DNA from: Flavipsychrobacter sp.
GTDB taxonomy: Bacteria; Bacteroidota; Bacteroidia; Chitinophagales; Chitinophagaceae
Length of the DNA stretch: 64,000 nt
Assembly (NCBI GenBank): GCA_021155965.1
Contig: JAJNBJ010000002.1
Location: 124,001-188,000 of the forward strand
Reading direction: 5' to 3'
Shown here: in pieces, positions 59,295 to 64,000 of the stretch
How the letters are laid out: each line of letters opens with the position of its first letter
Position numbering within the stretch: position 1 is the first letter of the stretch
Program-made: the position numbers and the translations under genes
The notes under the pieces: generated by a model
Seen by the model: only the letters and a program-made list of their open reading frames with translations
What the model was told of the DNA's origin: nothing
Databases searched by the model: none

Positions 59295-59334
59295 CCCAAA
59301 CCCCTAAAGGGGCTTAACTGGAGAATATATTTTG
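59295..59334 (+). repeat. 3'-end palindromic repeat, copy 4 with long flank
   Basis: The core CCCAAACCCCTAAAGGGG is followed by CTTAACTGGAGAATATATTT, almost identical over ~40 bases to the copy at 6214. It starts 3 bases after the rny stop. Confidence 0.88.
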
Positions 59335-59421
59335 AACTGCAACGCTAACCCGTTGCAGTTTTTTATTTGTAACAATACCTTTTATCTAAATTTCTTACCT
59401 TTGATAATAATTAATACGATT

Positions 59422-59613
59422 ATGACTTATATAGTTATAGACAAAACAGATAAGCAGGCCGAAGCGTTTTTGCGCTATGTAAAAACTTTGCCTTTTGCAA
59501 AAATACAATCCGGCGAAAATGCCGTTACAATTAAAGCAATGGAACAGGCCAAAAAAGGAAAAGTAACAAAACATAAAAGCTCGAAAGAACTTATTGCTTT
59601 CCTGAATAAATAA
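59422..59613 (+). CDS. antitoxin (DUF2683-like) of the YafQ-type module
   Basis: This 63-residue protein has an N-terminal strand MTYIVIDKTDKQAEAFLRYV and a Lys-rich C-terminus (HKSSKELIAFLNK), like the antitoxin at 43686. I chose ATG 59422. A TACCTTTG -7 box (59396-59403) lies 18 bases upstream; the nearest TTTG is 26 bases further, longer than usual. Confidence 0.87.
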   Translation: MTYIVIDKTDKQAEAFLRYVKTLPFAKIQSGENAVTIKAMEQAKKGKVTKHKSSKELIAFLNK

Positions 59614-59615
59614 CC

Positions 59616-59888
59616 GTGTACAAGTTAACCACAACAAAACAATTTGAGAGAGATTACAAATTGTGCAAGAAGCGGGGCTTAAATCTAAGCCTTCTTCACA
59701 AAGTATTTACCCTGTTAGAGGATTCAGGAACTTTACCGCCAAAATATAAGCCACATAAATTAACTGGTCCGTATACCGGCTTTTTAGAATGCCATGTACA
59801 AAATGATTGGTTGCTCGTTTGGTCGAAAAATGAAGAAAAGGGAGAGATCCTGCTTACAAGGACTGGAACCCACAGCGACCTTTTTTAA
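59616..59888 (+). CDS. YafQ/RelE-family mRNA interferase toxin
   Basis: This 90-residue toxin has the YafQ signature: FERDYKLCKKRG, PHKLTGPYTGFLECHVQNDWLLVW and the C-terminal TGTHSDLF with catalytic-site His. YafQ cleaves mRNA in translating ribosomes. It uses a GTG start 2 bases after the antitoxin stop. Confidence 0.93.
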   Translation: MYKLTTTKQFERDYKLCKKRGLNLSLLHKVFTLLEDSGTLPPKYKPHKLTGPYTGFLECHVQNDWLLVWSKNEEKGEILLTRTGTHSDLF

Positions 59889-62849: not shown

Positions 62850-62880
62850 TTAATGAACTGAAATCAACCGTTCATGAGTT
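62850..62880 (+). promoter_or_regulatory. predicted LytTR binding site upstream of the regulator gene
   Basis: TTAATGAACT (62850-62859) and TTCATGAGTT (62871-62880) are direct repeats with a 21-base period, each preceded by CG. The second copy is followed after 2 bases by the -33 box. The same arrangement occurs at 63765-63795. Confidence 0.65.
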
Positions 62881-62882
62881 TT

Positions 62883-62915
62883 TTTGTGAACAAATCCGTA
62901 AATAAAATAGTTTTG
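62883..62915 (+). promoter_or_regulatory. promoter of the LytTR regulator gene
   Basis: TTTG (62883-62886) and TAGTTTTG (62908-62915) are 21 bases apart, an exact match to TAnnTTTG. The start codon is 17 bases after the -7 box. The regulator can thus be made independently of the kinase gene. Confidence 0.7.
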
Positions 62916-62932
62916 CCTAATTGAAGGAACCT

Positions 62933-63709
62933 ATGCCGGATACAGGTAAGATACAGGCTATTATTATAGACGACGAGCTTAGGGCGCGTAATAGCTTAAG
63001 CAAGCTGGTTACAGACTATAATCCGAATGTGGAAATAATAGCCATGTGTGCCTGTGTGCCCGAGGGAGTGCTGGCTATAAACCAGAAGCGGCCGCAGCTT
63101 GTTTTCCTTGACATTGAAATGCCCGAATATAACGGTTTCGAACTGCTCTCATTTTTCAGGGACATAGATTTTCACATCATCTTTGTTACGGCCTACAACG
63201 AATACGCTTTGAAAGCTTTCGAAGTTTCTGCCGTTGATTACTTGTTAAAACCGGTAGATATTGATAAGCTGAAAGCCGCAATAAGCAAGGTAGACCAAAA
63301 GTTGAGCACTTATGATATGCAGAGCAAAATGGATGTGCTCAAAGAAACATTCAAAACCGGCCAATTCAACAGGATTGCGCTGCCGGTATCTGAAGGCCTC
63401 TTGTTCGTGGAAGTACCGGACATTGTTTACCTGGAAGCCGAGGGAGCTTATACTACCGTTTGGCTCCAGAATGGCTCTAAAATACTGGTGAGCAAGAAAA
63501 TGAAATTCTTTGAAGAGATACTCGAGGCCAGGCAAAACTTCTTCAGGTCGCACCGCTCATTCATTGTAAATATTAACTTCCTGAAGAAGTATAGTAAAAA
63601 TGAAGGCTCCCTCACACTAGATAATGGTAAAGTAGCCTATATCTCCCGCGATCGTAAAGCAGAGTTTGAAGAACTGCTGAAACAAAACAAATTGACAGTA
63701 GGATTTTGA
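62933..63709 (+). CDS. LytTR-family response regulator
   Basis: This 258-residue protein has a receiver (phospho-Asp 60 in LVFLDIEMPEYNGFELL; Thr in FVTAYNEYA; Lys in LLKPVD). The C-terminal LytTR DNA-binding domain (~150-250) has IVYLEAEGAYTTVWLQNG, FFRSHRSFIVNINFLKKYS and a final beta strand with the usual YISRDRKAEF. I chose ATG 62933 over TTG 62921. Two copies of a 21-base-period repeat lie upstream, suggesting autoregulation. Confidence 0.95.
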   Translation: MPDTGKIQAIIIDDELRARNSLSKLVTDYNPNVEIIAMCACVPEGVLAINQKRPQLVFLDIEMPEYNGFELLSFFRDIDFHIIFVTAYNEYALKAFEVSAVDYLLKPVDIDKLKAAISKVDQKLSTYDMQSKMDVLKETFKTGQFNRIALPVSEGLLFVEVPDIVYLEAEGAYTTVWLQNGSKILVSKKMKFFEEILEARQNFFRSHRSFIVNINFLKKYSKNEGSLTLDNGKVAYISRDRKAEFEELLKQNKLTVGF

Positions 63710-63731
63710 TAATTCACCACCCCGCAAGTAG

Positions 63732-63760
63732 AAGGCAACCTATAAACCGGTTGCCTTTTT
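63732..63760 (+). terminator. terminator after the LytTR regulator gene
   Basis: AAGGCAACC pairs with GGTTGCCTT across an 8-base loop. The hairpin ends in a T-run (63756-63760). It lies 22 bases past the regulator stop. Confidence 0.9.
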
Positions 63761-63764
63761 ACTG

Positions 63765-63795
63765 TTCATGAACTGGAACAGTCATTTCGTGAACT
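63765..63795 (+). promoter_or_regulatory. predicted LytTR binding site upstream of the NHL gene
   Basis: TTCATGAACT (63765-63774) and TTCGTGAACT (63786-63795) are direct repeats with a 21-base period. GACTTTTG (63824-63831) is a near match to the -7 box, 38 bases from the start of the second repeat, against 37 at the regulator promoter. Confidence 0.65.
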
Positions 63796-63856
63796 TTGCA
63801 CTTACATGCTGCAACAACCATCCGACTTTTGATCTGCAAAACAAAAAACTATAATT

Positions 63857-64000
63857 ATGAAAAAGCGCTACTTATCAAAACTCATTATAGCGGCCGTTTA
63901 TCTTGCAGCTATAGTAATAGCCACGATCTCACATGCACAAACCATCAGCACTTTTGCAGGCAATGGCACAGGTGCCCTGGCAGGGGATGGCGGGGCCGCA
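63857..64000 (+). CDS. secreted NHL-repeat protein (3' end outside window)
   Basis: The first 48 codons give a signal peptide (MKKRYLSKLIIAAVYLAAI, cleavage after SHAQ). They are followed by TISTFAGNGTGALAGDGGAA, the standard start of Bacteroidota NHL-repeat propellers. The rest lies beyond 64000. It is probably a T9SS cargo and the likely target of the upstream LytTR circuit. No alternative start fits the signal peptide. Confidence 0.82.
   Translation, partial: MKKRYLSKLIIAAVYLAAIVIATISHAQTISTFAGNGTGALAGDGGAA

Follow-up and report, generated by a model that had tools for sequence, protein, structure and literature searches.

The published binding sites of LytTR regulators have no sequence in common; each is made of two repeats of 9-11 bp, direct or inverse, around a spacer of 11-13 bp. 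The site of E. coli YpdB, for example, is a direct repeat of GGCATTTCAT in PyhjX (PMC4847170). In operons of LytTR Regulatory Systems (LRS), where an inhibitory membrane protein accompanies the LytTR regulator, the repeats are found just upstream of the -35 element, autoregulation is direct and positive, and the geometry is better conserved than the sequence; in two such systems of S. mutans, HdrRM and BrsRM, 9-bp repeats are mostly 12 bp apart, with a 21-bp period (PMC6193735).

The locus described here lies near the end of the window, a stretch of 64,000 nucleotides from Flavipsychrobacter sp., and its features are collected in Table 1. The hybrid two-component systems (HTCS) of Bacteroidetes have a Reg_prop and Y_Y_Y sensor module, and sensor, kinase, receiver and AraC output are joined in one chain. 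The kinase of the present locus shares this sensor module, but has neither an AraC nor a receiver domain; the output is a separate LytTR regulator without a fused AraC domain, and the target is not a glycan-utilisation locus. The locus resembles E. coli YpdB (PMC4847170) and S. aureus AgrA (PMC4227749) in that a LytS-type kinase is paired with a LytTR regulator, and in the form of the site, i.e., a pair of 9-11-bp repeats around an 11-13-bp spacer, located upstream of a promoter that would be activated. Unlike those systems, it has a half-site of its own and a promoter of Bacteroidota type, with a TAnnTTTG -7 box 27-28 bp past the operator and without a -33 element; the putative targets are secreted T9SS cargo and lipoproteins, and the sensors are of propeller or TPR type. 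The 21-bp period, the position just upstream of a promoter, a repeat sequence less well kept than its geometry and the probable positive autoregulation are as in HdrRM and BrsRM, but the neighbour of the regulator is a histidine kinase, not an inhibitory membrane protein, and the regulator itself carries a receiver domain. By this comparison the operator fits the known kind of LytTR site. New about it are its half-site and its setting in a Bacteroidota promoter, together with its targets and with sensors that are exchanged between loci. We found no description of a Bacteroidota LytTR operator in the open-access literature.

Table 1. Features of the kinase-LytTR-NHL locus (window positions; operators and -7 boxes are putative)
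Feature	Position	Strand	Remarks
Sensor kinase gene, 962 aa	59947..62835	+	Reg_prop propeller, Y_Y_Y, LytS-type His_kinase, HATPase-like C terminus
Operator 1	62850..62880	+	Distal half TTAATGAACT 62850-62859, proximal half TTCATGAGTT 62871-62880
-7 box TAGTTTTG of LytTR promoter	62908..62915	+	27 bp past operator 1
LytTR response regulator gene, 258 aa from ATG	62933..63709	+	Response_reg PF00072, LytTR PF04397, orthologues
Intrinsic terminator of LytTR gene, predicted	63734..63760	+	GGCAACC-N8-GGTTGCC-TTTTT, read from sequence
Operator 2	63765..63795	+	Distal half TTCATGAACT 63765-63774, proximal half TTCGTGAACT 63786-63795
-7 box GACTTTTG of NHL promoter	63824..63831	+	28 bp past operator 2
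NHL-repeat protein gene with T9SS sorting domain, start	63857..64000	+	NHL PF01436, Por_Secre_tail PF18962

The regulator has a response regulator domain and a LytTR domain in one chain, both above the Pfam cut-offs (68.7 and 68.1 bits); an alternative TTG start of its gene is possible at 62921. In the neighbouring kinase, PF07494, PF07495 and PF06580 (His_kinase, 80.7 bits) are above cut-off, and HATPase_c, with 23.6 bits, is under its cut-off of 26.4. The adjacency of kinase and regulator genes is kept in six genomes. The NHL-repeat protein has 598 aa, and its gene runs past the window end (L039:5858-7654). The repeat pairs had been reported in the earlier note at 62850/62871 and 63765/63786 with a period of 21 bp, and the second repeats at 37 and 38 bases from the box; direct reading of the sequence gives exactly these values, the distances being counted from the start of the second repeat. 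Each site is thus made of 10-bp repeats with an 11-bp spacer, and ends 27-28 bp before the -7 box. Every half-site contains the palindrome TTCATGAA. The NHL box deviates from TAnnTTTG in base 1, where G or C is common in homologous sites.

Two other features flank this locus. The kinase gene is directly preceded by a type II toxin gene of the YafQ family (PF15738, 107.8 bits; 59616-59888, plus strand), before which lies a small ORF at about 59332-59613, a probable antitoxin. Downstream of the NHL gene there is an ORF for an EGF-like, lipoprotein-type protein of 238 aa (L039:7831-8547, or G000:C16:189830-190546), which has this position only in the genome of the window and may be co-transcribed with NHL.

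Short two-copy repeats are often due to chance. The pattern TTMRTGARYT-N11-TTMRTGARYT has two perfect matches in the whole 4.25-Mb genome, operators 1 and 2, and no match with one mismatch, so that the pair does not occur at random frequency. At up to three mismatches, the matches are at background level in the genome (31+33, vs 26+28 for a reversed-pattern control), and number 5 inside the window, vs 0.75 +/- 0.89 in shuffles. The pattern was drawn from these same two sites, and evidence against chance therefore has to be independent of it; such evidence is provided by conservation and by a fixed box distance at sites found without reference to the box (see below). When the box is included, three sites with at most one mismatch are found in the genome, operators 1 and 2 and a site on another contig (G000:C18:52623-52653), 49 bp before the gene for a 354-aa lipoprotein. 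This protein is 36-40% identical to proteins of genomes G034, G018 and G014, whose genes also have the operator, with a TACTTTTA box. As read from sequence, the own-genome regulon is small, with about three genes rather than many genes for secreted proteins, and comprises LytTR, NHL T9SS cargo and one lipoprotein. Geometry-matched sites at up to one mismatch number only three, and we reject a large secreted-protein regulon here. The genome has 10 LytTR regulators, and use of the same half-site by the paralogues is likewise rejected, as no weight-matrix score of 9 or more is found in the paralogue loci L040-L047.

Orthologues of the LytTR regulator with 74-77% identity are present in six genomes of the same genus, and the NHL gene adjoins the regulator in five of them. 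In the aligned intergenic regions of all seven genomes, our own included, the operator precedes the LytTR gene (operator 1 is kept in 6/6 orthologues), and it also precedes the NHL gene in 7/7; conservation upstream of both genes, on which the earlier note had made its case depend, was thus found in all six relatives. The regions also share the -7 box, which is TAGYTTTG-like before LytTR and GACTTTTG-like before NHL. In five relatives operator 2 is at the same place, so that together with our genome it adjoins LytTR in six. The exception is G007, where a 5S rRNA gene at the end of the contig comes next after the LytTR gene, with no operator between them; the NHL homologue, on a separate contig, does have an operator, 73 bp ahead of its start. 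It is thus the target gene that the operator accompanies. G002 has a third copy, before the kinase gene. Position kept in six further genomes, the fixed box distance and the three geometry-matched sites of our genome refute chance resemblance, to which we give almost no credence.

Alignment of these sites extends the bare repeat pair to a 31-bp operator, TTCATGAACTnAAAnCnACCnTTCRTGAAtT, with conserved bases in the spacer and two halves that differ from each other; the conserved block nTnATGAACTnAAAnnnnCnnTTCnTGAnnT amounts to 27 bits in a weight matrix. An RNA hairpin that can be drawn inside operator 2 (ACTGTTC/GAACAGT, 63762-63783) was discarded, being upstream of the box and not kept in relatives. 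On contig C4 of G007, two long secreted proteins with degenerate repeats are encoded in tandem (649 and 543 aa); both genes have an operator 58 bp from the start (L159:7304-7334 and L159:9581-9611), followed by TAATGTTG or TAACATTG in place of the usual box.

Operator searches in the genus and the order used no box information. With a TAnnTTTG-type box defined as 5 of 6 fixed letters, the box starts 27 or 28 bp past the 31-mer in 32 of 36 operators, as compared with a mean of 0.6 and a maximum of 6 in 2000 trials with shuffled flanks, and none of the 36 has a box at offsets 21-25 or 29-32. When sites are aligned on the box, there is no TTG at the -33 spacing between operator and box, and no conserved base in this interval. 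In Flavobacterium psychrophilum promoters the box occupies positions -12 to -5 (PMC9723704); by this placement the operator spans about -71 to -41. We infer from this layout an activated promoter, in which the bound protein replaces the -33 contact. Position alone leaves the sign of control unfixed, and AgrA, itself a LytTR protein, reportedly represses another gene, bsaA; the regulator of the present locus might repress from this operator, or repress and activate depending on its phosphorylation state. We regard this as improbable, because the operator is upstream of the box, does not overlap it, and stands at one fixed distance in 32/36 sites, at promoters without a -33 element, all of which is as expected of activated promoters.

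More widely, an exact scan for operator plus box in 84,980 species genomes gave 32 stretches. Seventeen of these have a weight-matrix score of at least 25 and all are from Bacteroidota, among them Taibaiella, Flavipsychrobacter, a Chitinophaga pinensis MAG, other Chitinophagales and Bacteroidia, and also Flavobacterium sp. UMI-01 and Microscilla. Exact matches from outside Bacteroidota stay below 25 without exception and are regarded as chance. In 13 of the 17, the fetched stretch includes a LytTR gene of 46-77% identity, and the gene 3' of the high-scoring operators mostly starts with an apparent signal peptide. In the order, the strict pattern identifies operator plus box in 8 of 398 genomes (the box was checked in the fetched stretches, which cover all but a few weak pattern matches), and a LytTR orthologue at E 1e-60 or better is present in 7 of these 8, vs 33/398 overall; without our own genome the values are 6/7 and 32/397 (P about 1e-6). 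In the class, three of 395 genomes have operator plus box, with zero control matches, and these appear to be the same contigs as in the species scan, with LytTR proteins 59-70% identical. Drifted versions of the operator are seen in G128, G186 and G419, and TTCACAAA types in G422 and G261, while LytTR orthologues of 48-56% identity without a recognisable operator nearby are found in G101, G064 and G338. The putative targets vary between loci, with NHL/T9SS here and, at other places, different T9SS proteins and PKD lipoproteins. The sensors beside the operator vary too, Reg_prop/Y_Y_Y here and TPR elsewhere; the kinase core, LytTR and the operator are constant across loci. In a genome from another family of the order (L154:7430-10057, G155:C43), four operator copies are found within 2.6 kb around a LytTR gene, and three of them precede separate genes for small lipoproteins or secreted proteins.

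These data also bear on the idea that another transcription factor, such as an HTH dimer on the TTCATGAA palindrome, binds the site, and that proximity to LytTR reflects co-regulation only. The near-palindromic form of each half-site and the conserved spacer bases agree with it, as do two genomes that have operator and box with no close LytTR orthologue detected (G089 and, in the genus, G014), both of which are incomplete MAGs. The operator nevertheless goes with LytTR orthologues in different families, where sensors and targets are not the same, and other LytTR loci share the 21-bp period and the box distance with other half-sites (see below), so that we think such a factor very improbable.

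The paired repeats are thus very probably, judging from sequence, the docking site of the regulator. Conservation, fixed box distance, the absent -33 element and linkage to LytTR orthologues all support a LytTR operator, and in most sites the minus strand of the distal half has 8 or 9 of 9 positions of the LytTR consensus (4.5% of random 13-mers do); the proximal half fits this consensus weakly. With high confidence, we consider the repeats to be the operator of the adjacent regulator, which would activate its own promoter and a few genes of envelope proteins; binding, phosphorylation, direction of control and signal are what we infer. The reading of the earlier note is upheld by LytTR-site geometry, conservation and the tracking of orthologues, and is refined to a 31-bp site with unequal halves and, in one relative, an extra copy at the kinase gene. 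The propeller/LytS-type kinase encoded just upstream probably phosphorylates the regulator, a dimer of which would occupy both half-sites, separated by two helical turns, between about -71 and -41, and bring RNA polymerase to promoters that have the Bacteroidota -7 box and no recognisable -33 element. Activation of its own gene would be a positive feedback, and the NHL-repeat T9SS cargo and at least one unlinked lipoprotein gene would be activated as well.

The same geometry recurs near other LytTR genes. With sites of the present type taken out, we found 15 period-21 repeats with a box 26-30 bp away, as compared with 0-6 for each of the other periods from 14 to 30, and 2 for period 21 far from LytTR genes. 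Their half-sites include TTTACTAACC, TTTCACTCAT and TTCACTTATA, the last of which precedes a T9SS protein in our own genome. Operator groups also differ in LytTR residues near the C terminus (SHRS...SR[DE]RK or ARERK vs CHKS...SPDKV, the latter in the TTTACTAACC group). Cut-offs for box and repeat were chosen after the first operator type had been seen, and the result is therefore a lead and not a proof. At L042:14382-14412 (G000:C22), another LytTR system of this genome, repeats TCACTTATAG/TCACTTATTG of period 21 with a TACTTTTG box precede a 433-aa GEVED/T9SS protein, the geometry being the same and the half-site another one. Two divergent operators of TTTACTAACC/TTTCACTAAC type are found together in one intergenic region before a kinase gene (L088:4070-4150 and L090:4325-4400). 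That one geometry recurs with various half-sites would point to a readable code of general use, and we think it somewhat probable that Bacteroidota LytTR systems share one, in which a 21-bp-period direct repeat ending about 27-30 bp before the -7 box replaces the -33 element, the half-site (TTCATGAACT, TTTACTAACC, TTTCACTCAT, TTCACTTATA) drifts with the LytTR domain, and sensors and secreted targets are exchanged around a constant module of kinase core, LytTR and operator.

The operator at a fixed promoter distance would define a concrete regulon of LytTR, NHL T9SS cargo and one lipoprotein, and thereby tie surface and secreted proteins to a two-component system. Around it the sensor and target genes are exchanged, and the regulator-operator pair stays constant. 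LytTR regulators are numerous in Bacteroidota, and the present operator is a template for reading the other systems; if the shared code is true, the regulons of these abundant systems would be predictable from sequence.
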